Virus record (IMG/VR): IMGVR_UViG_3300018080_000681
Coordinates: 1-20,633 of that record
From: a virus
Direction: 5' to 3' (one strand)
Length of the DNA stretch: 20,633 nt
Below, in pieces: positions 1 to 13,313 of the stretch (the stretch's first letter is position 1; every line of letters starts with the position of its first letter). The position numbers were made by a program, and so were the translations under genes. The notes beneath the pieces were generated by a model. That model did not search any database and was not told where the DNA came from. It was given only the letters and a program-made list of their open reading frames with translations.

Positions 1-1
1 C

Positions 2-175
2 GATCATTCTAACAATTCATTTAGAGGTTGGTTGTGTGATGGTTGCAATAGAGGGATAGGCATGTTGGGGGATGATATAAAAGGAGTGAAAAAGGCTGTT
101 AAATATTTAAATCGTACAAAAAAACAAAAGAAAAGTGAAAAAAATACATTCATACAGCTTTCTTTGTTTGATTAA
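2..175 (+). CDS. Recombination endonuclease VII family protein, C-terminal fragment (cut by window edge)
   Basis: Frame 2 is open from the window edge to a TAA at 173-175 and gives 57 residues. The fragment starts DHSNNSFRGWLCDGCNRGIG and continues with MLGDD and a KKAVKYL helix. This matches the C-terminal half of the T4 gp49-type endonuclease VII / HNH fold: a D-H pair, then R-G-x-L-C-x-x-C-N, then G-x-L-x-D and a helix ending in A-x-x-Y-L. The family resolves branched DNA or acts as a free-standing homing nuclease in phages; the fragment cannot separate these roles. The upstream zinc-binding half and the start codon lie outside the window. The gene runs straight into half of a terminator hairpin that an insertion seems to have interrupted. 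The family call is firm; the exact role is inference. Confidence 0.82.
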   Translation, partial: DHSNNSFRGWLCDGCNRGIGMLGDDIKGVKKAVKYLNRTKKQKKSEKNTFIQLSLFD

Positions 176-189
176 ACCCGCCTCAATTA
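174..189. terminator. Left half of a terminator hairpin, apparently split
   Basis: The 16 bases AAACCCGCCTCAATTA overlap the stop of the endonuclease VII fragment and are identical to 2859-2874. At the second place they form the left arm and loop start of a perfect 11-bp hairpin. Here the right arm TTGAGGCGGG is missing; the sequence goes directly into the 3' end of the minus-strand nuclease gene, whose stop codon lies inside the shared segment. The likely reading is that a terminator was cut near its loop by insertion of that gene. Confidence 0.5.
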
Positions 190-1689
190 TTTATTTTTCT
201 TATATTTCAATTTATAAATTTCTGCCCTACAAGATTTGCATCGGGTAGAGTAACCATCAGATTTGGTTTTATCTGGAGAAAAGTCTTCAAATGCCTTGAT
301 GTTTTTACATTTATTGCATTGTTTTTTACCTTCAACAGCATATGGGTTTATTTTCTTTTTTCCTGGTTTCTTGCCAATTATATGTCCATTTTCTACTATA
401 CAAATAAATCTCCCATTTTTTTTAATATTTCTTTCATAAGAAATTTTAAGAATTTCATGTTCTTCATTGCAGAAATCACAAAACACAACTATTTTATCGT
501 TTTGTATTGAATTGTTATAATGTTTTTTGGCTTTAATTAAATTTCTATTTTTCCTTATTTTTTCAAAATCAACATTTGATACTTGGGATAAATATTTATC
601 TGCCCATTTAATTACAAAATATTCGCTGGAAAATCCTAATTCCTTTTCTGTCCATAATTCAAAATTCCAATTATTTCGTTTAGCATACTTTTTATTGTCT
701 TCTATTTGTTCTGCAAATTCTTTTAATCTTCTTTTAGGTTTAATTTCTGTAACAGTTGTTCCAGCTTTCCTTACAACAACAAAATCTGTAAAGCGATTTT
801 TACCATTAATAACAAAAGAAGTATGGTCAGAATATGTTATTACTTCATCGTCATTATCTAATAAAATCGCTGCCCTAAGTTCATAACTTGAAGCACAATA
901 AATAATCCCAGATTTATGAGATTCATGGTAAATTGTTCTTCTTTTGCTCAATGGGTTTTTAATAGTTAGATATTTTGTTAAATTTATTGCCCATTTTATT
1001 TTCCCCGCATCATAAACTCTTAATAGATTGTTATTCTTAGACCACTGGAATTCAGTTATTTCTTTAGGACAACCCGTTCTACTCTTTTTTTGACTTTGTT
1101 TGCTGTAGTAATTTAAATAATTATCTTCTTTTACATAAAAATAATCTGGTGGCAATTCACAGTCTTTGATAAAATTCATTTTTTCATAAACTTTTCCACT
1201 TGACCATCTTTTATCACTAAAACTTATAATTTTATCAATTCCCTTTTTTAGTGCCCATCTTTTTGCAGCATTCATTAATTTGCTTGCTCCACCAACAACT
1301 CTATAAGATGGATTGAAGCACAATCTGTCTAATAAAATACCTCCTTTCTTTCTGTGGTGTCTTCCTAAAGAAAGAACGCCCAAAAGATCATCATCTTTAA
1401 AGATTCCCCATGCTTGTAATGCTAATGTGTTGCTTCCTTGTATGTGGTAATCATCACAGAATTGTCTCATAGTATGCAAACTGATTTCTCTAATATTGCA
1501 TTTCCTAGCAAATATTTTATAAAGATTATTTGAATAAGAATTAAAATGATTTTTAATTTGCTTTTGTCTACTTGCCCATTCATGAGGGAAAATTACAAAA
1601 TTGCCTTGTTGTATGAATTTTAGTACATCATTTCTTTCAAGTAGTTTTAAATTATCACAAATGTATACATTATCAAATAAATTTCTCAT
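187..1689 (-). CDS. GNAT-like acetyltransferase / TnsA-like PD-(D/E)XK nuclease / zinc-ribbon fusion, probable homing-type nuclease
   Basis: A 500-residue protein with three visible parts. Residues about 60-200 look like a GNAT/Mom-like N-acyltransferase fold, with IQGS, GVLSLGRHHRK, DRLCFNPSYRVVGGASKLM and an SDKRWSSGKVYEKMNF end. I know this kind of domain fused to phage nucleases, where its role is unclear. Residues about 262-350 fit a TnsA-like PD-(D/E)XK nuclease: E270 (SSYELR), D302 (RFTDFVV) and E315-x-K317 (TEIKPK). The C-terminal part has C404-x2-C407, then a zinc ribbon C458-x2-C461 and C484-x2-C487 with the FxxFSPDKTKSDGYSTRCKSC pattern typical of phage HNH/GIY-YIG partners. The ATG at 1689 has an AAAAGGA 6 bases upstream. 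The gene lies opposite to its neighbours, and its 3' end overlaps half of a split terminator, suggesting insertion. Domain calls are by motif only. Confidence 0.7.
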   Translation of the reverse strand: MRNLFDNVYICDNLKLLERNDVLKFIQQGNFVIFPHEWASRQKQIKNHFNSYSNNLYKIFARKCNIREISLHTMRQFCDDYHIQGSNTLALQAWGIFKDDDLLGVLSLGRHHRKKGGILLDRLCFNPSYRVVGGASKLMNAAKRWALKKGIDKIISFSDKRWSSGKVYEKMNFIKDCELPPDYFYVKEDNYLNYYSKQSQKKSRTGCPKEITEFQWSKNNNLLRVYDAGKIKWAINLTKYLTIKNPLSKRRTIYHESHKSGIIYCASSYELRAAILLDNDDEVITYSDHTSFVINGKNRFTDFVVVRKAGTTVTEIKPKRRLKEFAEQIEDNKKYAKRNNWNFELWTEKELGFSSEYFVIKWADKYLSQVSNVDFEKIRKNRNLIKAKKHYNNSIQNDKIVVFCDFCNEEHEILKISYERNIKKNGRFICIVENGHIIGKKPGKKKINPYAVEGKKQCNKCKNIKAFEDFSPDKTKSDGYSTRCKSCRAEIYKLKYKKNK

Positions 1690-1722
1690 TTATATTCCTT
1701 TTAAATTATTATAATAATTCAT

Positions 1723-1744
1723 ATATGTCTTTGCAAGGACATAT
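1723..1744. repeat. 10-bp inverted repeat between divergent nuclease genes
   Basis: ATATGTCTTT, then GC, then AAGGACATAT. All ten positions pair, one as a T-G wobble. It lies between the start of the minus-strand fusion nuclease and the plus-strand KYGV gene. It could be an operator, a hairpin left by a mobile-element end, or a processing site; the sequence does not decide. Confidence 0.5.
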
Positions 1745-1765
1745 TCTGTCATAATCGGCGGCGTG

Positions 1766-2626
1766 ATGGGATTAAAACTAGGGAAGCCACAGGCTTGTCC
1801 CGTGGTACGTCACATAAACGGCGTCGAACATCACATGAAAAGTGATATCTCAAAAGAAAATCAAAAGAAATCAATGCGAGAAAAGTATGGAGTAGATCAC
1901 CCATACCAATCACCAGAAATAATGGCTAAAATGCGAGCTAAAAATAAAGAGAAATATGGAGTAGAAAATGTAGCCTCTCTTCCAGAAGTCCAAATTAAAA
2001 TGGCTGAAACCCGCCTCAAAAAATATGGAGTCGAACATTATAATCAACTTCCTGAAATGCGAAAATACTTAAGAGAACACTGCACAGAATGGCTTGCTGA
2101 AAGTTATAAAAATCCTTGGGCTAAAGGGATTACTCGTCCTGAAGAGTGGAATCAGAAACAGAGTATAACAGTATCAAATTTAATTGAAAAAGGAATATGG
2201 AAAGGAGGAAGTAAAACGCATCGAGGTAAATATAAGTCAAAAAAATGTATAAGAAAACAACCAATGTTTAGATCGGGTTATGAATTGCAAGTGCATTTTT
2301 ATTTAGATAAAAATGAAAACGTTGATTGTTATGATTATGAACCTTTTCAAATCCCTTATTATGATACTGAGGGCAAACTACGACATTACACGGTAGATTT
2401 TATTATAAAATTTAAATCTGGTTCTATTTTGCTTATTGAAGTTAAAAATAATTATTCTAAACCACAATTTTTAACACACCCTAAATATAAAGTTCTTGCT
2501 GAACTTTGTGAAGAGTATTTAATAGATTATGAAATATGGGCGAATGATGATATTAAATCCTTGAATCTTGATATAAAGCAATTACTTATTGATGATAGGG
2601 TAACATTATTTAATCTAACTGACTAA
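1766..2626 (+). CDS. KYGV-repeat / TnsA-like nuclease, 5'-truncated paralogue
   Basis: 286 residues from ATG 1766 (an in-frame GTG is at 1763); no clear Shine-Dalgarno sequence precedes either. The first ~18 residues come from the IS605-like junction and have no counterpart in the paralogue at 2948-4108. From 1820 on, 114 codons match the paralogue without gaps, with 7 amino-acid differences by my count: GVEHHMKS, then EKYGVDHPYQS, EKYGVENVASL and KKYGVEHYNQL repeats, then TEWLAESYKNPWAKG. After NQKQ the proteins diverge. The C-terminal half is a TnsA-like PD-(D/E)XK nuclease with YELQ, TVDFII and LIEVKN as the E, D and E-x-K positions. The N-terminal cysteine domain and one KYG repeat are lost. 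It may be translated from an internal start or be dying. It ends in its own hairpin terminator. Confidence 0.6.
   Translation: MGLKLGKPQACPVVRHINGVEHHMKSDISKENQKKSMREKYGVDHPYQSPEIMAKMRAKNKEKYGVENVASLPEVQIKMAETRLKKYGVEHYNQLPEMRKYLREHCTEWLAESYKNPWAKGITRPEEWNQKQSITVSNLIEKGIWKGGSKTHRGKYKSKKCIRKQPMFRSGYELQVHFYLDKNENVDCYDYEPFQIPYYDTEGKLRHYTVDFIIKFKSGSILLIEVKNNYSKPQFLTHPKYKVLAELCEEYLIDYEIWANDDIKSLNLDIKQLLIDDRVTLFNLTD
1781..1813 (+). mobile_element. Possible IS200/IS605 (TnpB-type) right-end remnant
   Basis: The hairpin GGGAAGCC-ACA-GGCTTGTCCC is followed by CGTGGTACGTCAC. An alternative pairing is CCAC (1787-1790) with GTGG (1802-1805). A terminal hairpin of the form GGGAAGCC...GGCTTGTCCC ending in a TCAC-type border is what I recall for right ends of many IS605/TnpB elements and the 3' end of their omega RNA. 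Just after the TCAC the sequence becomes homologous to the interior of the second KYGV nuclease gene, so 1813/1814 looks like an element border. No tnpB or tnpA remains nearby. The resemblance is from memory and needs a database comparison. Confidence 0.42.
1820..2161 (+). repeat. Copy A of a 342-bp duplicated segment (KYGV repeat domain)
   Basis: This segment aligns without gaps to 3308-3649, also 342 bases. Protein identity is 107 of 114 by my count, while many third codon positions differ (for example CCTTGGGCTAAAGGG against CCGTGGGCTAAAGGA). Similarity drops sharply at both ends: left at the IS605-like junction, right after the codons for NQKQ. It marks a duplication whose nuclease half was later replaced or diverged. 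Confidence 0.85.
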
Positions 2627-2630
2627 AAAG

Positions 2631-2660
2631 AAACCCGCTCTTTTCAGAGCGGGTTTTTAT
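2631..2660 (+). terminator. Intrinsic terminator after the truncated KYGV nuclease
   Basis: AAACCCGCTC, loop TTTTCA, GAGCGGGTTT, then a T-rich tail. The perfect 10-bp stem begins four bases after the gene's TAA. Read on the minus strand it is also followed by a T-rich run, so it may also stop the short gene arriving from the right. Confidence 0.85.
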
Positions 2661-2803
2661 TTTCTTACTATATATCTACGCTTGTGCGTATATGTAGTGT
2701 AAAAATTACAACGCCTGTCCAAGTTGTCTTTGTATAAAATGTGTTTTGGGAAGTCTGCTATTAGCTTCTCTTGTTTGCAATAAATGCAAATTTTAGTTTT
2801 CAT
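2657..2803 (-). CDS. Short zinc-knuckle protein, probable remnant of a homing-type nuclease
   Basis: 48 residues from ATG 2803. A longer version from a TTG at 2842 is possible but has no better ribosome binding site. The start MKTKICIYCKQEKLIADF is the usual opening of phage nuclease zinc ribbons (C-x2-C-x3-K-x4-F). The second cysteine pair is broken: after YKDNLDRRCN comes FYTTYTHKRRY instead of CKxC. It is very short and has no nuclease domain, so it is more likely a decayed piece than a working gene. It fills most of the 320-base gap between the two KYGV genes. Whether it is expressed cannot be judged. Confidence 0.35.
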   Translation of the reverse strand: MKTKICIYCKQEKLIADFPKHILYKDNLDRRCNFYTTYTHKRRYIVRK

Positions 2804-2860
2804 GTAAATAATATAATTAAAAATTCCCTGTTTGGCAAGCAAATGAGAGGTTAAATAAAA

Positions 2861-2888
2861 ACCCGCCTCAATTAATTTTGAGGCGGGT
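2861..2888 (-). terminator. Strong hairpin terminator, minus-strand orientation
   Basis: ACCCGCCTCAA (2861-2871) pairs perfectly over 11 bp with TTGAGGCGGGT (2878-2888), with loop TTAATT. On the minus strand the stem is followed by GTTTTTATTT, a good T run; on the plus strand the tail is weak. No minus-strand gene ends here, so it may be left over from an older arrangement, or block leftward read-through from the capsid operon. Its left part is repeated at 174-189. Confidence 0.7.
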
Positions 2889-2909
2889 AATTTCTTGCTT
2901 GCGTTACTA

Positions 2910-2917
2910 TATAAATT
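2910..2917 (+). promoter_or_regulatory. T4-late-like promoter octamer (TATAAATT)
   Basis: TATAAATT differs from the T4 late consensus TATAAATA at the last base. It lies 30 bases before the chosen ATG (2948), leaving a short leader that contains AGGAG at 2935-2939. Placement and match support late expression; it is inferred from consensus only. Confidence 0.5.
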
Positions 2918-2947
2918 ATGGTAAGATACACAAAAGGAGACAATTAT

Positions 2948-4108
2948 ATGTATCTACAAGAACTAAATGGCATTTTACCTGCTCAAAAAATTAAAATCAA
3001 GTATGATTGTGATGGAGGATTTGAGAGGTGTGGCAAAGAATGGGAACTTAAACTTAAAGATGCTCAAAAGAACTTTGGAAAGAACAATGGAAAACACATG
3101 TGCAGAAAATGCACGCTACGTCATAAAAACCCCATGTATGATAAGAAAAATGTAGAAAAAGTTAAAAAAACTAATTTAGAAAAATATGGAATAGAATTGC
3201 CACTTAATTCAAAAAAGCACATTGAAGCACGAAAAGAACAATTTAAAGACCCTGAATTTAAAGAAAAATGGCTAGAAAAACATCGCCAAACCTCCCTGGA
3301 GAAATATGGTGTTGAACACCACATGAAAAGTGATGTCTCAAAGAAAAATCAAAAGAAATCAATGCGGGAAAAGTACGGAGTAGATCATCCATACCAGTCG
3401 ACGGAAATCATGGCTAAAATGCGAGCTAAAAATAAAGAAAAATATGGAGTAGAAAATGTAGCTTCTCTTCCTGAAGTTCAAATAAAAATGGCACAAACTA
3501 GATTAGAAAAATATGGCGTTGAACACTATAACCAATTGCCAGAAATGCGGGAGTATTTAAGAGAAAATTGCACGGAATGGCTAGCAGAAAGCTATAAAAA
3601 TCCGTGGGCTAAAGGAATTACACGCCCGGAAGAGTGGAATCAAAAACAAAGGGAGACAGTTGCGAAACGCATTGTTGAAGGTAAGTGGCCTGGTGGTTTT
3701 ATATCTAATTGTCGTGGACGCTATAAAGCAATAAAATGTAGGAAAAAAAATCCTCGGTTTTTATCTAGTTTAGAATTGCAAATGCATTTCTTTTTGGATA
3801 ATCATCCTGATGTAATTTGGTATGACTACGAATGTCTTGTTATCCCTTATTTAGACAAAGAAGGCAAAAAGCATTTATATTTCCCAGATTTTGTAGTTAA
3901 ATATAAAAAAGATCCTATAGAACATATTATTGAAACAAAAACATGGAAAGATAAAGATTCTATTACTGTTCAATTAAAACACGACGCAGCTATCGATTAC
4001 GCCACTGAACGCAATATGACATACACTATTTTATTTGATGAAGATATACAAGAATTGGGATTAAATTTAGAAGTCATAAAACAATTGGCCGTAGTTGAGT
4101 TATATTAA
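2948..4108 (+). CDS. KYGV-repeat / TnsA-like nuclease, full-length copy
   Basis: 386 residues. The ATG at 2948 is preferred over one at 2918 because AGGAG lies 8 bases upstream and a late-promoter-like octamer lies just before the longer start. The N-terminus has C21, C28, C52 and C55, a probable zinc-ribbon. Then come five repeats with the core EKYG(I/V)(E/D): LEKYGIELPLNS, LEKYGVEHHMKS, REKYGVDHPYQS, KEKYGVENVASL and LEKYGVEHYNQL. Such repeats occur in phage free-standing nucleases and probably recognise DNA. After WAKGITRPEEWNQKQ comes a TnsA-like PD-(D/E)XK nuclease: SLELQMHF (E), FPDFVV (D) and IIETKTW (E-x-K). A bidirectional terminator follows the stop. It sits beside the capsid operon, a common site for homing nucleases. 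The target is unknown; a defence or recombination role is the alternative. Confidence 0.72.
   Translation: MYLQELNGILPAQKIKIKYDCDGGFERCGKEWELKLKDAQKNFGKNNGKHMCRKCTLRHKNPMYDKKNVEKVKKTNLEKYGIELPLNSKKHIEARKEQFKDPEFKEKWLEKHRQTSLEKYGVEHHMKSDVSKKNQKKSMREKYGVDHPYQSTEIMAKMRAKNKEKYGVENVASLPEVQIKMAQTRLEKYGVEHYNQLPEMREYLRENCTEWLAESYKNPWAKGITRPEEWNQKQRETVAKRIVEGKWPGGFISNCRGRYKAIKCRKKNPRFLSSLELQMHFFLDNHPDVIWYDYECLVIPYLDKEGKKHLYFPDFVVKYKKDPIEHIIETKTWKDKDSITVQLKHDAAIDYATERNMTYTILFDEDIQELGLNLEVIKQLAVVELY
3308..3649 (+). repeat. Copy B of the 342-bp duplicated segment (KYGV repeat domain)
   Basis: Partner of 1820-2161: the same length, no gaps, 107 of 114 residues identical by my count, with many synonymous base changes. 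The copy lies within the intact nuclease gene, which continues on both sides. Confidence 0.85.
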
Positions 4109-4178: not shown

Positions 4179-5654
4179 TCATATCACAAAATTGGCTATC
4201 GAGAGGCGTGCGTAAAATTTACTTCCCTCACGTAATAGCTTTTTACCATAGCGTGTTAATATGCCTTTTCTCGGACAAAAACTTTCAGGGTCTAACACAA
4301 CCGGAGTTTGTGTCAGGGGCACGTATGGAAGGTAGAAATAACCAGCATCCATATAGCTGTCACCCTTGTAACCCATAAGGACTTGACCTTGTGGGAACAG
4401 AGGATCTTTATACAGACGCCAACGGCTATTTACCGTACCAACGTACTGGATACCAAGAGAACTTGTGAAAGTCTCAGAAGGTGCAGGAGCGAAGCCGGCA
4501 GTAGCTGTTTCAAAGATAGAAGCAACTTCGGGAGAAGTAACAAGCCAGTTACAACCACCACGAAGAGTCTTTCTATGAACAACGTTGCTGACTTCTACTA
4601 TCTTCACGTAGAGGCTTTCATAACGCTCTTTGATTGTGTCACCCAAAGCAGTGTTGAAGTCCCAAGAAGCCACAGTACCGGCATTGTTACGCAGATCTGT
4701 TAGCACTTCTCGGTCAATTTCCAAGTTAATTTCCTGAGCCAAAACGGCTGTCAATTCAGCTTCGGCGTCAAGGTTGTGCTGGCTACGAAGGTCTTGTTGA
4801 GCTTCATAGGACCAAACAGCCTTAAGCTTTCTTGTCTTGGCAGCGACTTCTTCGCTTTCCACAACCAAGTTAATTTCGGGCAGATCAGGGTTACATTCCA
4901 TGTTGTACTCATAGTTGGCTACAACAGAGTTTGAACCAGGACCAGCTCCCCCGCCACCAGTGTCAGACCAAGCAATTACTAGCTCACCTGTGGTGAGATC
5001 TAGAGAACTACCTGCTGCTAGTGGAGTGTAATCAGGAGCACCAATTGCATTAACGGTGAAAGTACCACTCTCATCGATGGCATACGTAGCAACGGCTGTT
5101 GCACCATCATAGATCGTACCAGTCATCGTACCTGCCAAAATTGGTGTGTGTTCAAGCGGAGCGAAAACACTTGTCATATCTAAACCATCATCAGTAGAAC
5201 TCGTTTCATTCTGAACGAACTGGTGAGAGTAGTAGATATCAAGGTTTGCATCACCACTTGCCAACTGTTGAAGCGAATTAGCATCATCAGTTGGATAGCC
5301 ACCATTATTGTCAGCACCACGGGTTGAACCCTTGTTGCTGGAATAACGGAAGCGAAGATAATAGACTAAACCAGTTGGACCGAGTAATGGTTGTACGGAT
5401 ACAATCTTGTTAGCGATCAACTGGGGATAAATACGACGTACAAGCGGAATAGAAATACGCTTGAATTGGGCGATATCGCCTGTATCGGTTGAAGTTTCAT
5501 TGAAAAGCAACTGGTTTTCAAGCATAACGGCAGTGTTTTTACGAACAAATTCATCGTCCAAATCACCATTTACACTGTCAAGAAGACCAGTCTTATTCCA
5601 CTTGGCTTCACAAATTTTGCTTTCATTCAAAAGTCTTGAATTGCCACTAAACAT
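4179..5654 (-). CDS. Major capsid protein, T4 gp23 type
   Basis: 491 residues; forms the hexamers of the head shell. The family signature is at residues 61-100: IAQFKRISIPLVRRIYPQLI followed by VQPLLGPTGLVYYLR, close to the gp23 R-x-x-P-Q-L-I-A-N and GPTGL motifs. VWSYEAQQDLRSQHNLDAEA with EINLEIDREVL later, and FCPRKGILTRYGKKLL near the end, also fit HK97-fold gp23 proteins. Residues about 167-251 look like an inserted beta-rich domain (TMTGTIYDG..., LDLTTGELVIAWSD, a GGGGAGPG linker, VVANYEYNME). T4 gp23 loses an N-terminal segment to the prohead protease; here L-x-E sites at LLNE (8-11) and LLFNE (49-53) are candidates. A GAGGT element precedes ATG 5654. It is last in the head operon, before the terminator. 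Confidence 0.93.
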   Translation of the reverse strand: MFSGNSRLLNESKICEAKWNKTGLLDSVNGDLDDEFVRKNTAVMLENQLLFNETSTDTGDIAQFKRISIPLVRRIYPQLIANKIVSVQPLLGPTGLVYYLRFRYSSNKGSTRGADNNGGYPTDDANSLQQLASGDANLDIYYSHQFVQNETSSTDDGLDMTSVFAPLEHTPILAGTMTGTIYDGATAVATYAIDESGTFTVNAIGAPDYTPLAAGSSLDLTTGELVIAWSDTGGGGAGPGSNSVVANYEYNMECNPDLPEINLVVESEEVAAKTRKLKAVWSYEAQQDLRSQHNLDAEAELTAVLAQEINLEIDREVLTDLRNNAGTVASWDFNTALGDTIKERYESLYVKIVEVSNVVHRKTLRGGCNWLVTSPEVASIFETATAGFAPAPSETFTSSLGIQYVGTVNSRWRLYKDPLFPQGQVLMGYKGDSYMDAGYFYLPYVPLTQTPVVLDPESFCPRKGILTRYGKKLLREGSKFYARLSIANFVI

Positions 5655-7338: not shown

Positions 7339-9174
7339 TTATTGGTCAATTACTAAATCTTTCTCTTTACCTTTATTCATTTTATAAGACTGAGGCGTTT
7401 CAGCCTTTGGAACGTAAGGATTTTGTAAATTGGGCCATGTGTCAGAACCTTGATCTTGGCCTAAGCCGCCATCATGGTTTTTATCAACGCTGGGTTCGCC
7501 CTTCATCGTATAATCACCATATGGTTTTGGCACATATGGGTTTTGTAGAGAGGGATACGTATCCGAATCACCTACATTGCCCCAACTTCGATTTCTCATA
7601 TTGCCAGCCAAACTGCCCTTATAATTTTTTCCATCACTAACTGGAGCTACATCGCCCCAATCACCGGAAAAATCATTTTTAGGACTGTAAGGAACGCCAG
7701 CGTTTTGAGCCATTCGAGGATGGTCACCACTTGTTGTGATATGAACTTTATTACTTGGATTCCATTCGCTTGAATTAAGATTGGTTTCCATTAAACACTG
7801 TACCCATTCGGCTACTGTTTCAGCCAAATCAACATCAGGTTCAATTTCGCCTTCCACAATAGCGTGTAGATCACGCAAAAATTCCTGAGCTTCCTCAGCT
7901 AAGATTTCATCGCCATCTCTGTTGGCTTGTGAATAAATTTCACCAACAACAGTGTAGAGATCATAGAAAACCCGCATTTCCACGCCAGCACTTTCATCCA
8001 ATTCAGAATAAAACTCGCCCACAGCTTCTTGGAAACATTCATATTTTTGACAATCGGTTTGATTAGCAAGCCTAAGAATCCTATCAATGCTGTCGGTGTG
8101 GACTTCATGGGCTGTTCTTAAAATGCCCTCTGCCATAAAATCACAAATTTGATCGTCATAAGCAGAAACACCTACAATTTCTAATGCTTCTTGAATAATT
8201 TTTGCAAGTTCAGATTGTGTTAAATAAATAACATTCGGCCATTGCGTAACAATACCTTCTAAAGATTCCTGCAAATCATCTGAATCCTCAAAAGCATTGT
8301 GTCGTTTTAATTCTGCAACAGCCTTGCAAAAGTCTGTACTTTCAGCTAATTTTTTACTGCCATCACGCAAGCACTTAACTTCGTGATTGAGAGTTTTCCA
8401 ATTAAAACTAAGAATCTTGCCTTCATTTCGAACATTAATGGTAGGAATGCGAAGGGCAATTACATTACCCTTTTCATCGTGCTTGGCAACGGATTCTTTT
8501 AATGCTGGTCCCAAAGCTCTAAAATCAACATATTCCAATACGTTTTGAGCAGTGGTATTAATTTGATTAATAACTTCATTGGCCATTTTTAGGCCAACCT
8601 TGTGTCGTCTACGTTCCGCAGCCTGTCTTTCACGTCTCTTTTGAGCCGGACCCTTTAGCCGATTGGCCTTTTTTCGGCCTCGCAACATAGCAGCCTTGCG
8701 TGCGCCGGAATAATGCTTCCGAGGTTTTCTTACAAGCTTCTTCTTAACGCTACCATCTGCGGTTTGAACAGCCCTATAAGATGCCTCTTCCATTTGTCTT
8801 TTTACAACTGGTAAGCTAACGTAATCATCAAAAATTTCATGGGCCTTCATTTCGTTGTCGTCTATTAATTCTTCAACTAAACTGCGAAGGACTCCTCGGG
8901 CATTTTGTTTTTCTTGTTCCTCGTCAACCACCAACTCCTCAATACCTTCTAAGGTAATTGCATCCTTTTCTAATGTGTAGGACGCATAAATGTAGGTATC
9001 ATCTAATGTTTCATAAAGAACATGTGAATCGCCATAACAATGCAAAGAAACGGCTTCTTGTTGCAATGCTTGAGCTAACACATCCTCTGCACCAACTAAT
9101 TCTCGTTCGGCATTGGATAATGATTCACTTTCGATCTTTCTAAATACATCAAAGTCAATTAGTTTTCGCTTCAT
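7339..9174 (-). CDS. Head-region protein of unknown function, 611 residues
   Basis: I do not recognise a family. The start is placed at ATG 9174 (MKRKLIDFDVF) because AAGGAGT lies 6 bases upstream; a longer start at 9201 lacks a site. Residues 144-196 form a strongly basic stretch (KKKLVRKPRKHYSGARK, RGRKKANRLKG, KRRERQAAERRRHK) that could bind DNA. The middle is acidic and helical (about 270-480). The C-terminal ~130 residues are Asn-, Gly- and Pro-rich and carry two near-copies of SDT(Y/W)P(S/N)LQNPYVPK at 537-550 and 577-590. The gene lies between portal and protease, where T4 has genes 67 and 68 for prohead core proteins, so a head-internal or assembly role is likely but is inference from position. 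Its stop lies within the protease leader. Confidence 0.7.
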   Translation of the reverse strand: MKRKLIDFDVFRKIESESLSNAERELVGAEDVLAQALQQEAVSLHCYGDSHVLYETLDDTYIYASYTLEKDAITLEGIEELVVDEEQEKQNARGVLRSLVEELIDDNEMKAHEIFDDYVSLPVVKRQMEEASYRAVQTADGSVKKKLVRKPRKHYSGARKAAMLRGRKKANRLKGPAQKRRERQAAERRRHKVGLKMANEVINQINTTAQNVLEYVDFRALGPALKESVAKHDEKGNVIALRIPTINVRNEGKILSFNWKTLNHEVKCLRDGSKKLAESTDFCKAVAELKRHNAFEDSDDLQESLEGIVTQWPNVIYLTQSELAKIIQEALEIVGVSAYDDQICDFMAEGILRTAHEVHTDSIDRILRLANQTDCQKYECFQEAVGEFYSELDESAGVEMRVFYDLYTVVGEIYSQANRDGDEILAEEAQEFLRDLHAIVEGEIEPDVDLAETVAEWVQCLMETNLNSSEWNPSNKVHITTSGDHPRMAQNAGVPYSPKNDFSGDWGDVAPVSDGKNYKGSLAGNMRNRSWGNVGDSDTYPSLQNPYVPKPYGDYTMKGEPSVDKNHDGGLGQDQGSDTWPNLQNPYVPKAETPQSYKMNKGKEKDLVIDQ

Positions 9175-9230
9175 ATTATGACTCCTTAAGCCGATGTACA
9201 TGATAATTAACTTGTATGGTCTATATATGT

Positions 9231-9279
9231 TAGTGGTTGAGTTTTCTATTAATCTTTTAAGATAAAATTACAACCACTA
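9231..9279. repeat. Inverted repeat in the divergent control region
   Basis: TAGTGGTTG (9231-9239) and CAACCACTA (9271-9279) are perfect 9-bp inverted copies. Between them lies a smaller palindrome, ATCTT-TT-AAGAT. The right arm ends two bases before the perfect late-promoter octamer at 9282. The pair lies in the 162-base gap between two divergent genes, so an operator or stem-loop affecting both directions is plausible. Confidence 0.6.
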
Positions 9280-9281
9280 CT

Positions 9282-9289
9282 TATAAATA
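9282..9289 (+). promoter_or_regulatory. T4-type late promoter (TATAAATA)
   Basis: An exact match to the T4 late promoter consensus, 48 bases before the ATG of the 154-residue protein, with nothing else between except an AAAAAAGG ribosome binding site. In T4 this octamer is read by RNA polymerase with the gp55 sigma-like factor. It should drive the two overlapping plus-strand genes. Confidence 0.75.
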
Positions 9290-9336
9290 GATACTAATAA
9301 TATTGTATGCACCAACACGCAAAAAAGGTTTTATAA

Positions 9337-9801
9337 ATGATAACTTTCAAAGATTACGTTCAAAACAGACGATTATTTGAATATGATGCATCTACTGATT
9401 TTATGGGAGGCGCACAAGACCCAGGCGGCTCTTTAGGCGGTAATTCCCCTCAAAAAGTCCCTAGTAGTGATTCAGGAAAATGGAAATTTTCTAGAGGTGA
9501 TGGTGGACATAGTAGTGAACAATCAGATAAAGCTTTGGCACAATTAAATAATTTAGTACGAATGGTTATTGAACACTCACCACCAATAGTATTAAGTTTT
9601 TTAACAAAAGTTAGTAGTCAAATGGGAGATAATTTTAATCAGCAATTGCAAGATATGCATAATTCTGGCGCTTGGACACAATTACAAAGCATGAGAACTA
9701 TGATGACCAATCGCCATCAAAGCGATGATGGGTTAGAAACTATAGCTCCCAATGATGCTGATTCTGGCGGAGGGGCAGGAGGAGAAGAAGGTGAAGAGTG
9801 A
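9337..9801 (+). CDS. Small late protein, possibly head-internal, unknown function
   Basis: 154 residues from ATG 9337 with AAAAAAGG upstream and a perfect late-promoter octamer 48 bases before. No family recognised. The N-terminus ITFKDYVQNRRLFEYD resembles T4 internal-protein capsid-targeting sequences (MKTYQEFIAE type) and has a possible (L/I)-x-E protease site, LFE. Residues about 24-60 are Gly- and Ser-rich. About 65-120 is a helical segment (LAQLNNLVRMVIEHSPPIVL, FLTKVSSQMGDNFNQQLQDM). The tail GGGAGGEEGEE is acidic; its codons also supply the ribosome binding site of the next gene, which it overlaps by 11 bases. The pair is probably co-translated. A packaged or head-assembly role is inference. 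Confidence 0.65.
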   Translation: MITFKDYVQNRRLFEYDASTDFMGGAQDPGGSLGGNSPQKVPSSDSGKWKFSRGDGGHSSEQSDKALAQLNNLVRMVIEHSPPIVLSFLTKVSSQMGDNFNQQLQDMHNSGAWTQLQSMRTMMTNRHQSDDGLETIAPNDADSGGGAGGEEGEE

Positions 9802-10702
9802 ATTTAATTTTAAATTATGGCTTACCGAAATGGCGCTTGCACAAGTGTCAAAAGCACAAGTCCCAATGGACAATGAGGATCTTGAGTTTCTTCAACAATT
9901 TCCCAAAAAAACAATTATTTGGCAACAAGCTCTAAAGTGGAGATACAATGATTTACTTAAAATGGCATTAGATGAATTGGGTTTTATTAAATCTGGATTT
10001 AAAGATAAACAATTAGTTGTTGTAAAGTATCATGGCAAACCTATAGAAATAGAAGCAAAAACAGGCATTAAAAATCTTGTTAGAAAACTTAAGAATTTAG
10101 ATTTTGATTTAAGAAATGATCCTAGATCGCCCAATTTAATAGGCATGGATTTAATGAAACCTCATAATGCCATTCATGTATTAAAAGGCGCAAACAAAAG
10201 AAAAGGATGGCTTGATGTTGGATTAGAACCTGGATTTACATATTGGAGACCAAATCACAATAAATTTGGTTCTATTGGACATACTGATCTTGACCCGGAA
10301 GGGATAAAAACAAGAGAAAAAATGATGAAACAATTAGCAATTGAATCTGAAGATTTTGTACTCCAAGCATTAAATAATTTAAAATTAAGGAATCATATTA
10401 ATTATTCGAACATGTATTCCAAACGAAATGATTTGCAAAGCAAAGCACTTTCACTATTGGTTGCTAATACAAATCATCCTTCATTTAACGATAAAGCATG
10501 GAGAAAAAGAATGGTTTTTAGACTTGTAAACATCGAAAGCCAACGAGATTGGGGACACGGAACAAGACGGCAAATCGCTGCGGGCGTGATGCGTAAAAAA
10601 GGTCGTCCTAAATCTTCATCATCGAGCTTTGATCGTCCCTGGAATGCAGAAGGAGAGTGGGAACCACTATCGCCACATTCTGATTTAAACCCATATTTGT
10701 GA
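9791..10702 (+). CDS. Late protein of unknown function, 303 residues
   Basis: The start is taken as GTG 9791, since AGGAGG at 9777-9782 lies 8 bases upstream; an ATG at 9752 lies deep in the previous gene with no such site. The N-terminus SEFNFKLWLTEMALAQ again looks like a short aromatic/hydrophobic leader ending in L-x-E, as in proteins packaged in T4-type heads. The body is basic, with KYHGKPIEIEAKTGIKNLVR (a possible small beta unit), NAIHVLKGANKRKGWLDVGLEPG, and a C-terminal basic/serine stretch MRKKGRPKSSSSS. No enzyme motif recognised. It converges on the portal gene with a 46-base gap that shows no clear terminator. Confidence 0.68.
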   Translation: MKSEFNFKLWLTEMALAQVSKAQVPMDNEDLEFLQQFPKKTIIWQQALKWRYNDLLKMALDELGFIKSGFKDKQLVVVKYHGKPIEIEAKTGIKNLVRKLKNLDFDLRNDPRSPNLIGMDLMKPHNAIHVLKGANKRKGWLDVGLEPGFTYWRPNHNKFGSIGHTDLDPEGIKTREKMMKQLAIESEDFVLQALNNLKLRNHINYSNMYSKRNDLQSKALSLLVANTNHPSFNDKAWRKRMVFRLVNIESQRDWGHGTRRQIAAGVMRKKGRPKSSSSSFDRPWNAEGEWEPLSPHSDLNPYL

Positions 10703-10748
10703 ATTGCCAATGGCGGATTTTCTGAAAGATGTTCACTAAATTCTTAAT

Positions 10749-13313
10749 TTACTCAGTTGAATAATCAATTTCTTCTTCGTCTTTTTCTTTACTATAATTG
10801 AGAATCTGAAGATCGTATTTTTTCAAATCATCTTCTGTAGGATCGGGCAATAATATTTTGGCAGTTCGATTGCCATCCTCTTGAGATTCGCCATTTTCAG
10901 AATCATTTAATTGAGGCGGACCATCATTAGAAAATGCAGGACCACCCATTCCACCACCGGGCATAGGCGGAGCGCCACCCATTGGTGGCGCTCCCACGTC
11001 GGGTTCTAACATTGGGTTCGGACCACCAGGCTGTGAGCCGATTTCTTGCTCTCCCTCACCAGGCATTCCAACCCCCAAAAGTGCAGGATTTTGAGCCAAA
11101 ACTTGAATTTTAAGATCTTCAAGTTTTTGTATTTTTAATCTTGATAACTTTTCTTTTGCATCATCTTCTGAAAGTTTAAGCCAATCAATATAAATGTCGT
11201 AATCACTGAATAGTTGAGAACCCTTCACATTCGAAGCGTTGTTAATACGATTAGTAATCACCTCAGCGCGACTCATTTCTCGCCAATCCGAAGGGGGCGT
11301 CATTTTAATTTTTAAGTCTTCATAAGATTCTTCAGGAAAACCACGCAGTTTTAAGTGTTTATCCGCAATATCCCATAAACAATCTTCTAAAGATGCTTGG
11401 AGTCGTTCGGTTAATCGAGCGAATTTAACATCTTGTGCTGATAATGTGATTCTGGTAGCATTTGGATCTTCGTTATTGAAGTAGTTTTTAGGAAAATTCA
11501 TTGCTGTGAATAATTTGTTCCTAAAATAAATGGCGTCATCAATTTCACCCAAGTTCTGAGCACCTGGAAGTGTTTCAACTCGTGTATTAGATTGTGGACG
11601 AATTGGAATCCAATAATCTTCATCCGCAGCGGGCGGATGCCATCTCTCTTCCACTTGCGAAGCTCCCGGCAACCCCGTTCTACTGCTGCCTACTTTCTTT
11701 TTGCGGAATTGATCTTTCATTCTTTCCATGAAAGCCTCCGCTTTAAATGGTGGCAATCCTCCAACATCAATGTAAAACACACGACGCTCCGGTGCCCTGG
11801 TGAGCCTATACACGACCATTGCATCTTCCATCAGACGTAATTGATGTGCTGGTCCTCTTGCCGCCTCAATTAATGAAACTCCATATGGATAGAATGTCTT
11901 TCTATCATCACCAATACGACCATGCACGACTTGTTCGGGAGAAAATCGTATAGCAGTAGATTGTCTTAATTCTGCTTCGGTTGCTTGAGTTACAGGTGCT
12001 TTGGTTAATGATTCGTGATCTGGACCTTCTTTGCTCTGTTGAAATTCTATTAAACGCCCCTTAGTAGTCTCAATGCGATACATAGATTCTGGCGGTAACA
12101 TCATAACTTTGAGAATTCCATCCTTAGGATTATCCATATTGGTAACAAGTTCAATAAAAATATCACCATAAATAAATAAATTTTTAGCCCAATTCCAAAT
12201 CCTTCTATTAATATTCAACATTTTGTAATGGAAGAACATGAATTCCAACTCTTCCTTCACGTCTTGATTCTTTACTTCAATTTTACAAATGCAACCATCA
12301 TCATTTACTTGACAATTATGAAATATTGCCGATTCACCGCAGAAATTTTCATGATCCCGAACAGATAGATCATATACTGGCATTTCATCCCAAGGAATAA
12401 TTCCCACAACCCGTCTATGTTTTTCTTTCTTAGACAACCAACGTATTTCTTTAAATGAAAAACCAGTTTTATGAATCCAAGATTCTATTGTTTTCCATTG
12501 ATGTCCCATTTGTTGCTGAATCTGTTTAGTAGTCAAACCTGCGGCTATCAGTCTTGCAGCTTTATTGATTTCTTTAAATTTCTCTCGCTTTTTGCCTAAT
12601 TTCCACTCATCAATAAATTGTCGCTCATGTTTCCATCCGTCAAAAGTAAAAATTCTTGGGAATTGATTAATTTTTAATTTTGTAAGATTTTGATTTGCAG
12701 GCATCCGATAAAATGGCATTAATTCATTACCAAACTGAAGTTGCCCTGCCATTCTCCATTCGCCATTTTTAAGTAAAACTCTGTGATCTAACGTGCAAAT
12801 AAAATGTGTACCGTCATCAAGTGCAATCTTAACTGTTTTTTCAACTTTAACTTTACGAGGCGAATAGGCCCATCCTAAGCTATAATCCCCCTTTTCGAAA
12901 TCCCAACAATAAACCAAAAACTCTTCATTTTGTTTGTTTTCGGTTAGCCATTTGATAGTTTTAGGTCCATCAAATAAAGTAGAAATGATAGTATTGCCTG
13001 CTAAACATGATTCATCTGCGAATACAGTCATTGCTGTTTCAATTTCAGCTACATTTCTAAGGCGTTCGTATTCTTTGTAACGGCTTTGACGATTGGAAAC
13101 AGATGACAAATCTACAAAGTCATTTGAATCTCGGAGGCGGATCATACCTCGGCTGCCACCCCAAAAACTGCCATCTTGGCGAATATCAGGAATTGCATCC
13201 GGTTGGGAAACACCAGCACCCGTTAGTTTTTTATTATCTAGCGCAGCAGAAAGAGGGTCTTTTGTTCCCAAAGCATATTGAAATAATTTAAAATAATCCC
13301 ACCATGCAGCCAT
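10749..13313 (-). CDS. Portal (head-tail connector) protein, T4 gp20-like, containing an intein
   Basis: 854 residues as encoded, 623 after splicing; T4 gp20 has 524. Portal proteins form the dodecameric ring that docks terminase and passes DNA. Family features: RNVAEIETAMTVFADES before the intein, and CQVNDDGCICKIEVK, WAKNLFIYGDIFIELVTN, VMMLPPESMYRIETT, APERRVFYIDVGGLPP, LPGAQNLGEIDDAIYFRNKL and MNFPKNYF after it, in gp20 order. The C-terminal ~100 residues hold a Pro/Gly/Met-rich linker (GGAPPMPGGGMGGP) and an acidic tail, longer than in T4. ATG 13313 has GGAAGG 7 bases upstream. The gene lies downstream of the giant protein and upstream of the 611-residue gene. Without splicing the portal fold would be broken after residue 102. 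Confidence 0.93.
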   Translation of the reverse strand: MAAWWDYFKLFQYALGTKDPLSAALDNKKLTGAGVSQPDAIPDIRQDGSFWGGSRGMIRLRDSNDFVDLSSVSNRQSRYKEYERLRNVAEIETAMTVFADESCLAGNTIISTLFDGPKTIKWLTENKQNEEFLVYCWDFEKGDYSLGWAYSPRKVKVEKTVKIALDDGTHFICTLDHRVLLKNGEWRMAGQLQFGNELMPFYRMPANQNLTKLKINQFPRIFTFDGWKHERQFIDEWKLGKKREKFKEINKAARLIAAGLTTKQIQQQMGHQWKTIESWIHKTGFSFKEIRWLSKKEKHRRVVGIIPWDEMPVYDLSVRDHENFCGESAIFHNCQVNDDGCICKIEVKNQDVKEELEFMFFHYKMLNINRRIWNWAKNLFIYGDIFIELVTNMDNPKDGILKVMMLPPESMYRIETTKGRLIEFQQSKEGPDHESLTKAPVTQATEAELRQSTAIRFSPEQVVHGRIGDDRKTFYPYGVSLIEAARGPAHQLRLMEDAMVVYRLTRAPERRVFYIDVGGLPPFKAEAFMERMKDQFRKKKVGSSRTGLPGASQVEERWHPPAADEDYWIPIRPQSNTRVETLPGAQNLGEIDDAIYFRNKLFTAMNFPKNYFNNEDPNATRITLSAQDVKFARLTERLQASLEDCLWDIADKHLKLRGFPEESYEDLKIKMTPPSDWREMSRAEVITNRINNASNVKGSQLFSDYDIYIDWLKLSEDDAKEKLSRLKIQKLEDLKIQVLAQNPALLGVGMPGEGEQEIGSQPGGPNPMLEPDVGAPPMGGAPPMPGGGMGGPAFSNDGPPQLNDSENGESQEDGNRTAKILLPDPTEDDLKKYDLQILNYSKEKDEEEIDYSTE
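12315..13007 (-). other. Intein (231 residues) within the portal gene, with a helix-turn-helix insert
   Basis: Portal residues 103-333. Splicing blocks are all visible: block A starts with Cys103 (CLAGNTIISTLFDG); block B is HFICTLDHRVLLKNGEW with the T-x-x-H pair; block F is MPVYDLSVRDHENF; block G ends FHN followed by Cys334 as the +1 residue, with the penultimate His present. Removal joins ADES to CQVNDDG. Between blocks B and F, about residues 195-300, there is no LAGLIDADG motif; instead a segment INKAARLIAAGLTTKQIQQQ then MGHQWKTIESW reads as a helix-turn-helix, with basic flanks. This is either a mini-intein with the DNA-binding remnant of a homing nuclease, or a compact unknown homing domain. 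It should self-splice. Confidence 0.92.

Follow-up and report, generated by a model that had tools for sequence, protein, structure and literature searches.

The window analyzed here, i.e. the entire stretch of 20,633 nucleotides of IMG/VR virus record IMGVR_UViG_3300018080_000681, harbors two KYGV-repeat nuclease genes on the plus strand, a truncated copy 1 (1820-2626) and an intact copy 2 (2948-4108), which are followed on the minus strand by the gene for the major capsid protein gp23 (4179-5654; PF07068, E 4.7e-83). The insertion locus is defined by the 3' end of this capsid gene. Upstream of the two copies, the contig begins within an endonuclease VII-like (HNH) gene, of which only the 3' end is present (1-173, plus strand; PF02945, E 3.7e-8; phrog_2633, E 1.2e-11), and this is followed by a minus-strand gene (187-1689) for a protein with Mom/GNAT-like, TnsA-like nuclease and endoVII-like zinc finger parts, with matches to PF00583, PF08722, PF25680 (weak), to the C-terminal part of phrog_3339 and to phrog_1035. 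This divergent Mom/GNAT-TnsA neighbor is paired likewise, as judged by synteny, in the relatives L006 and L014. A small CxxC zinc-finger ORF lies between the two copies (2657-2842, minus strand; phrog_1035/2255, E about 2e-3 only); it resembles the C terminus of endoVII/GNAT nucleases and is perhaps a fragment. A search for group I introns or other structured RNAs around the copies yielded no Rfam match near threshold.

An intact and a truncated copy

Copy 2 probably starts at ATG 2948 rather than at 2918, since AGGAG precedes the former at 2935-2939 and the resulting protein begins MYLQ, as in its relatives, and it is 83% identical to three of these (L002-L004) over its entire length. Its conserved KYGV half (3308-3649, plus strand; PF24308, E 1.2e-22, 81.4 bits against a cut-off of 27) is modeled as helical repeats with a 23-residue period, with YG[VI] at residues 90, 130, 153, 176 and 199, and is only slightly basic (21 K+R and 17 D+E in 114 residues), which lends DNA binding little support. 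The TnsA-like nuclease half (3650-4108, plus strand; PF08722, E 2e-10, 41.5 bits against a cut-off of 26.5) has invariant columns, and its catalytic-pattern residues E286, D324, E339 and K341 are unchanged across 23 proteins. A structure model of copy 2 matched TnsA (1t0f) with a Z of 11.4, a comparison dominated by the nuclease domain and not by the KYGV part, and a PDB sequence search with the family profile returned no match.

Copy 1 consists of a conserved KYGV half (DUF7487; 1820-2161, plus strand; PF24308, E 2.8e-16, 60.5 bits, cut-off 27) and a nuclease half (2162-2626, plus strand; PF08722, E 2.9e-7, 31.4 bits, cut-off 26.5) that also has the invariant columns, and both C-terminal halves at the locus are indeed TnsA-like, as the first-pass annotation had proposed. 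The catalytic-pattern residues E174, D212, E226 and K228 of copy 1 (numbering of the ORF from 1763) are intact, and its nuclease half has its nearest relative in L093 (58%). At its 5' end the gene is truncated, lacking the zinc-ribbon N domain and the first KYGV repeat. The earlier placement of the KYGV protein start at 1763/1766 had to be abandoned, as the first 17 residues of that ORF come from reading through the right end of an IS605-type element (1783-1813) and homology to copy 2 begins at 1820 (perhaps 1814). No ribosome-binding site was seen for copy 1; ATG 1835 is a possible internal start.

Copy 1 is not intact, in that an IS200/IS605 (TnpB) right end at 1763-1813 replaces its first 130 codons. 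The full feature, a right end or omega-RNA-like 3' end on the plus strand (1716-1813), abuts copy 1 and has an RNA fold z of -2.8. It follows the pattern GAAGCCAC..GTGGTANNTCAC, i.e. GAAGCC-stem-GGTAnnTCAC, which has one match in the window and none in 100 shuffles, and matching ends lie directly 3' of TnpB ORFs in IMG/VR, e.g. in L138 (PF07282, PF01385). The identification of this GC-rich block came via the structured pattern only and not via its exact sequence, searches with which gave no viral match and one chance match in a coding gene. Only the end of the element remains: neither the interval 1690-1819 nor the window's ORF list as a whole contains a tnpB or tnpA ORF.

Conserved repeat halves and diverged nuclease halves

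As first described from the letters of the sequence, the gap-free alignment of 1820-2161 with 3308-3649 spans 114 codons, of which 107 encode identical residues and 7 differ (codon alignment), so that the two KYGV halves share 85% of their nucleotides and 94% of their amino acids; mechanical repeat detection in the window likewise returned a direct repeat (1820-2119 and 3308-3607) with 85% identity over 300 nt. The abrupt loss of similarity directly after NQKQ was also recovered, the ML change point falling at copy-2 residue 245 (range 243-245), with identity between the copies going from 94% before it to 37% after it.

By NG86, the repeat halves differ with dN 0.037 and dS 1.46, a dN/dS of about 0.03 that is far from neutral, and the nuclease halves with dN 0.66 and dS 1.78, the two halves diverging at different rates; neither of the outcomes that the first-pass annotation had named as refuting was thus observed. 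Where both copies carry the same residue, the codon is identical in 61% of columns vs 53% expected at random (P=0.05), and this agreement, barely above random, places synonymous sites near saturation despite 94% protein identity. The KYGV half is under strong purifying selection, and the copy is not a recent one. The earlier proposal that selection acts on this half in both copies is supported by dN/dS, with the qualification that copy 1 has been truncated by the IS605-type end, so that selection there describes the past and maybe not the present. The near-random synonymous codon agreement rules out that the two KYGV halves were recently homogenized by gene conversion. A likelihood-ratio test on dS did not separate exchange from selection (2dlnL 1.3), with ML codon dS saturated and its upper bounds infinite.

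Relatives and turnover at the gp23 locus

Relatives with an alignable KYGV half were gathered by two scans and one gp23 scan, which yielded 21 further distinct members, all at the gp23 3' end in T4-like phages; scans with the copy 1 nuclease half alone added none beyond the known family set. The relatives are stand-alone ORFs between gp23 and variable genes, without a surrounding intron or intein. Across 51 distinct gp23 loci, the site holds a convergent KYGV gene in 21, an inverted one in 2, another TnsA/GNAT-type gene in 16 and something else in 12, and occupancy switched at least 18 times on the gp23 tree. Two genomes (L070 and L071) share 94.2% identity until the stop codon of gp23 is reached, differ beyond it, and farther on carry a KYGV-VSR-GNAT gene that is 99.7% identical, from which it follows that this gene moved after the genomes had split. 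Weak covariation with gp23 (Mantel r 0.43 for the repeat half and 0.13 for the nuclease half) indicates that vertical inheritance accounts for some of the pattern.

Repeat-half and nuclease-half identities are poorly correlated across the family (r=0.17), and individual pairs are discordant in either direction. L014 and L009 share 97% of gp23 and 89% of the repeat half with a nuclease half only 32% identical, and their blastn alignment is unbroken except for 546 bp that correspond to the nuclease half and spacer. Conversely, L006 and L014 are 76% identical in the repeat half and 97% in the nuclease half, and copy 2 and L082 are 71% identical in the nuclease half and 55% in the repeats. Monophyly of the nuclease types on the repeat tree was rejected by AU tests (p 3e-6 to 3e-5), as was a clade of copy 1 and copy 2 on the nuclease tree (p 1e-8); on the repeat-half trees, neither copy 1 with L093 (p 0.43) nor copy 2 with L111 (p 0.32) was rejected. 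Change points fell at residue 245 in 50 of the 90 strong pairs, and at about 150-200 where the pair has a nuclease type in common.

That modular exchange is real in the KYGV-TnsA family follows from the discordant identities taken together with the AU tests and the change points. The suggestion that one KYGV unit is paired with exchangeable cutting domains, with the break at the domain border, thus stands for the family; for the window pair, where the grouping of copy 1 with L093 on the repeat tree is not rejected, exchange is likely and is formally inseparable from very unequal rates.

Discussion

Frequent changes of occupancy, the inverted gene, and a KYGV fusion relative with 99.7% identity beside a 94% flank lead us to regard the KYGV-TnsA genes as probable free-standing homing endonucleases at the gp23 3' end of T4-like phages, a reading drawn from comparative sequence data. 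In this model, the N-terminal zinc-ribbon and KYGV repeats would probably anchor the enzyme at its DNA target, and the C-terminal TnsA-like PD-(D/E)XK domain would cut. Any genome that lacks the gene or has a rival allele would be cut close to the gp23 locus, and repair from the donor would copy the gene. Between alleles that share the KYGV half and gp23 and have unrelated nuclease halves, a crossover in the conserved last KYGV repeat or linker (residues about 176-244), together with a second in or near gp23, could replace the nuclease half as a cassette and keep the KYGV half. Copy 2 would then be the intact resident, and copy 1 a family member, either older or incoming, whose nuclease half is of the L093 type and whose 5' end was subsequently broken at the point where the IS605/TnpB-type element now abuts. 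The invariance of E, D and E-x-K in the 23 proteins suggests that they have been kept active.

The same patterns can be read without exchange, as ancient duplicates whose KYGV half was constrained by one fixed target and whose nuclease half drifted fast. Such an origin would accommodate nearly saturated synonymous sites at 94% amino acid identity in the KYGV half, as well as the AU result for the repeat tree, where a nuclease-like position of copy 1 is left unrejected (p 0.43), but it is improbable in view of the reverse pattern in L006/L014 (nuclease 97%, repeats 76%) and copy 2/L082 (71%, 55%), the rejection of shared histories by AU, and the sharp ending and restarting of nucleotide homology around the nuclease half in close phages; for the family as a whole, these observations refute selection alone. 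We also find it hard to credit that the genes are inert passengers in a spacer that follows the late capsid operon and tolerates recombination, shuffled by ordinary phage recombination: the boundaries do coincide with the stop codon of gp23 and with the KYGV block of highest conservation, where homologous recombination would be expected as well, yet the catalytic-pattern residues are invariant in 23/23 proteins and the recently moved 99.7% tract covers the nuclease gene itself.

A role in domesticated defense, either as nucleases for superinfection exclusion or against satellites, like Odn of ICP1, or as the restriction part of a Mom-like system, has precedents. Odn is an anti-satellite nuclease derived from a homing endonuclease gene (PMC8263062), and Mom-REase fusions of jumbo phages were predicted to act as restriction-modification systems (Iyer et al. 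2021; PMC7824862). The Mom/GNAT-TnsA protein as a divergent neighbor in the window, L006 and L014 would fit such a role, which we nevertheless consider unlikely, as many loci with a KYGV nuclease have no detected GNAT neighbor, and unrelated nucleases that replace one another rapidly at a fixed position, here at gp23, are what homing genes usually show.

Homing is also the annotated function of the closest described proteins. The first-pass annotation knew of no described function for the KYGV pairing, but PHROGs 3339 and 12131 of the relatives, whose KYGV proteins adjoin virion genes, are already annotated as homing endonucleases. Members of phrog_3339 (F-LimVIII of Dickeya phage LIMEstone1, gp045 of Klebsiella phage K64-1 and Campylobacter phage 'Hef') likewise have KYGV (DUF7487) repeats followed by a nuclease of PD-(D/E)XK-fold type, and several of the genes sit in gaps between virion genes, e.g. 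tail tube/tail sheath. They differ in a C-terminal part that is VSR/DUF559-like and Mom/GNAT-like rather than TnsA-like, so that KYGV repeats are, as anticipated, fused to other domains elsewhere (a VSR/DUF559-like nuclease, a Mom-like GNAT); both window copies match phrog_3339 only at positions 91-267, not in the C-terminal part, the identity of about 24-39% being confined to the KYGV part. The nuclease halves match the T4 gp4 head completion nuclease (phrog_218; E 1.8e-15 and 9.6e-14), a virion morphogenesis nuclease without KYGV repeats, and the fold match of the copy-2 model is to TnsA of Tn7, itself a transposase subunit. A far weaker fold match (Z 6.2) was obtained to I-Bth0305I, an EDxHD/VSR-like homing endonuclease in which a nuclease domain is joined to an extended repetitive DNA-binding part (PMC3943268), and which is intron-encoded and belongs to another catalytic motif family.

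A parallel in architecture is offered by homing endonucleases of the T5orf172 type that carry CapR/DUF723 domains (Barth et al. 2023; PMC10448857), which have a repetitive DNA-binding half, combine homologous binding halves with unrelated nucleases and the reverse, and are sited at borders of exchanged structural-gene regions, although they consist of a T5orf172 nuclease and zinc-finger binding repeats. Domain swapping among phage homing endonucleases is thus already known from the T5orf172 family, and the KYGV/TnsA version is new; our literature search found no paper on DUF7487 or one linking KYGV with homing endonucleases. It is conceivable, if doubtful, that KYGV serves large phages as a general address module for cutters (TnsA-like, VSR-like) and Mom-like modifiers, with gp23 alleles competing by swapping nuclease halves while one address is kept, such that cleavage chemistry or position rather than target choice would be under selection.

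The common view is that phage homing enzymes evolve via altered recognition. In the KYGV-TnsA family, it is the cutting half that has been repeatedly replaced and the presumed recognition half that persists, at one fixed site next to the virion gene of highest conservation. As a natural allele series, the 21 relatives would allow recognition and cleavage to be tested separately, and they suggest a testable function for DUF7487.

Gene neighbourhood and domain composition

The window, 20.6 kb long, is an entire IMG/VR contig of a T4-like phage, in which Pfam searches identified the major capsid gene gp23 (4179-5654, minus strand), the prohead protease gp21, the portal gene gp20 and terminase. 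Downstream of gp23 lies a cluster of nuclease genes, comprising in order the end of an endonuclease VII gene cut by the contig end (1-173, plus strand), a Mom/GNAT-TnsA-zinc finger gene (187-1689, minus strand), KYGV copy 1 (1820-2626, plus strand), a small zinc-finger ORF, and KYGV copy 2 (2948-4108, plus strand). A terminator-like sequence, AAACCCGCCTCAATTA, occurs at 174-192, after the GNAT-TnsA gene, and at 2859-2888, between the KYGV copies. Elsewhere, gp20 (10749-13313, minus strand) carries an intein splicing domain (PF14890, residues 119-333, E 4.7e-11) of about 215 residues, ending ...FHN/C and apparently without an endonuclease domain, i.e. a mini-intein near free-standing nucleases.

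The KYGV half corresponds to DUF7487 (PF24308) and consists of helical repeats that recur every 23 residues. The nuclease half is TnsA-like (PF08722) and also matches phrog_218, the PHROGs family of the 'head closure' nuclease gp4 of T4. The copy 2 model matched TnsA with Z 11.4 over 152 residues (3.1 A), compared with only 5 to 6.5 for unrelated nucleases, and its E286, D324, E339 and K341 are invariant across 23 proteins. The first-pass annotation had described a conserved repeat half and an abrupt loss of similarity after NQKQ, and both observations were borne out: the copies have 114 gap-free codons in common (1820-2161 and 3308-3649), differ there at 7 amino acids and are 85% identical in nucleotides, and immediately past NQKQ, at copy 2 residue 245 (range 243-245), protein identity drops from 94% to 37%. 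Synonymous positions in this block are almost saturated, since identical residues have the same codon in 61% of cases where chance predicts 53%, and dN and dS (NG86) were 0.037 and 1.46; codon maximum likelihood was in accord, with unbounded dS estimates. These values point to an old block under strong conservation of its protein sequence, and not to a recent duplicate.

Exchange of halves among relatives

Scans with each of the two KYGV copies gave nearly identical sets of IMG/VR contigs, in every one of which the gene adjoins gp23, and a gp23 scan added more, for a total of 21 distinct relatives; several of the contigs compared are fragments. Identity in the repeat half was nearly uncorrelated with identity in the nuclease half (r 0.17, 253 pairs). 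The clearest natural experiment is a set of four contigs (L006, L009, L010 and L014) with gp23 proteins that are 95-97% identical. Within it, L014 and L009 are 89% identical in the KYGV half and 32% in the nuclease half, with a blastn match that is unbroken to the junction, interrupted for 546 bp, and restarted just before gp23, whereas in L006 and L014 it is the nuclease half that is shared (97% amino acid, 95% nucleotide identity) and the KYGV half that is less alike (76%). The pairs L005/L012 and L071/L082 repeat the L014/L009 pattern. In AU tests, limited by alignment lengths of 114 residues and about 150 residues, monophyly was rejected for each nuclease type when imposed on the repeat half (p 3e-6 to 3e-5), and for repeat-half groups when imposed on the nuclease half (p from below 1e-50 to 1e-3). 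When two proteins resemble each other in the KYGV half, identity mostly breaks off at residue 245; when they resemble each other in the nuclease half, similarity starts within the conserved KYGV repeats, at about residues 150-200, the pattern expected if a homologous crossover in the conserved last repeats were combined with a second crossover near gp23.

For the window pair itself, exchange is the likely but unproven origin, judging from the two trees. The nuclease tree places copy 1 with L093 and copy 2 with L111, L082 and L065 (supports 99/99 and 100/99); joining the two copies there is rejected (p 1e-8). The repeat tree makes the copies sisters (support 94/92), yet copy 1 with L093 is not rejected in this case (p 0.43). 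If a single tree were to fit both halves, the KYGV half of L093 must have evolved at many times the rate of the copy 1 KYGV half, with equal rates in their nuclease halves.

A truncated copy beside an IS605-type end

Copy 2 starts at ATG 2948 with AGGAG in front, as in its relatives; no such start signal was found for copy 1, which is without the 130 residues preceding the second KYGV. The 17 codons ahead of its block read through GAAGCCACAGGCTTGTCCCGTGGTACGTCAC, a pattern with a single occurrence in the window and none in 100 shuffles. Most of its 47 occurrences in IMG/VR resemble IS605 right ends, and 11 of the 47 have a TnpB C-terminal motif upstream at a regular 99-129 nt (4% of random positions had the motif anywhere within 1.8 kb). 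On one contig (L138) the pattern lies directly 3' of a TnpB gene (PF07282, PF01385), and that contig and the window have in common CTAGGGAAGCCAC..GGCTTG.CCCGTGGTACGTCAC. We therefore assign 1716-1813 (plus strand) as the right end of an IS200/IS605 (TnpB) element, without a transposase gene, abutting copy 1, where recognisable KYGV homology begins at 1820. Read most simply, these sequences record an IS605/TnpB-type insertion, accompanied by a deletion, in which copy 1 lost its 5' part. If 1716-1813 were transcribed as omega-RNA, its guide would begin ATAAACGGCGTCGAACATC, running into the KYGV gene.

Turnover at the gp23 locus

Of the 51 distinct gp23 loci whose flanks were long enough, 23 have a KYGV nuclease at this site (2 inverted), 16 another TnsA/GNAT-type gene, and 12 something else (several HNH), the non-KYGV classes depending on similarity thresholds. 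On the gp23 tree the occupant changes at least 18 times. Contigs L070 and L071 are 94.2% identical across the upstream genes and gp23 to its end, then entirely different; past the differing segment, their KYGV-VSR-GNAT genes (L070:8429-9903, L071:11302-12776) are 99.7% identical over 1475 bp. Being more similar than its genomic neighbours, this gene bears the signature of recent movement. The inserted segment of L071 encodes a 790-residue HNH and helicase-like protein (8725-11097) adjoining the KYGV nuclease. The inverted KYGV-TnsA genes of L047 and L093 lie at nearly the same place, 156-1340 nt after gp23. TnsA-like nucleases at the gp23 site of two further contigs (L067:7608-8774, L108:1385-2557) have a C-rich N-terminal domain resembling that of copy 2, with NUMOD3-like motifs replacing the KYGV repeats.

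Relation to known systems

Phages of Dickeya, Salmonella, Escherichia, Klebsiella and Campylobacter have proteins, annotated as homing endonucleases (phrog_3339), in which the KYGV repeats are followed by a VSR/DUF559-like domain and a GNAT-like one; their genes often separate tail tube from tail sheath. KYGV is thus paired with at least two kinds of nuclease. The KYGV-VSR-GNAT fusion in relatives of the window matches the Mom family, and Mom-REase fusions have been described, with a predicted restriction-modification role (Iyer et al. 2021, PMC7824862). KYGV-repeat matches reach about 8 and 17 places per genome in Prevotella Lak phages and the uncultured jumbo phage LR756500, respectively, a high load of putative homing genes.

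Free-standing homing genes of T4 sit beside essential genes, and one gene can be the target of homing enzymes from different classes (Edgell et al. 2010, PMC2988022). Barth et al. 2023 (PMC10448857) described T5orf172 enzymes in which binding and nuclease halves are swapped, and homing genes located at the edges of structural regions that have been exchanged. Half swapping is thus already described, and the KYGV-TnsA family at gp23 is a further case. What it adds is a family fixed at gp23 that retains the presumed address while exchanging the cutter, and has many alleles at this single locus.
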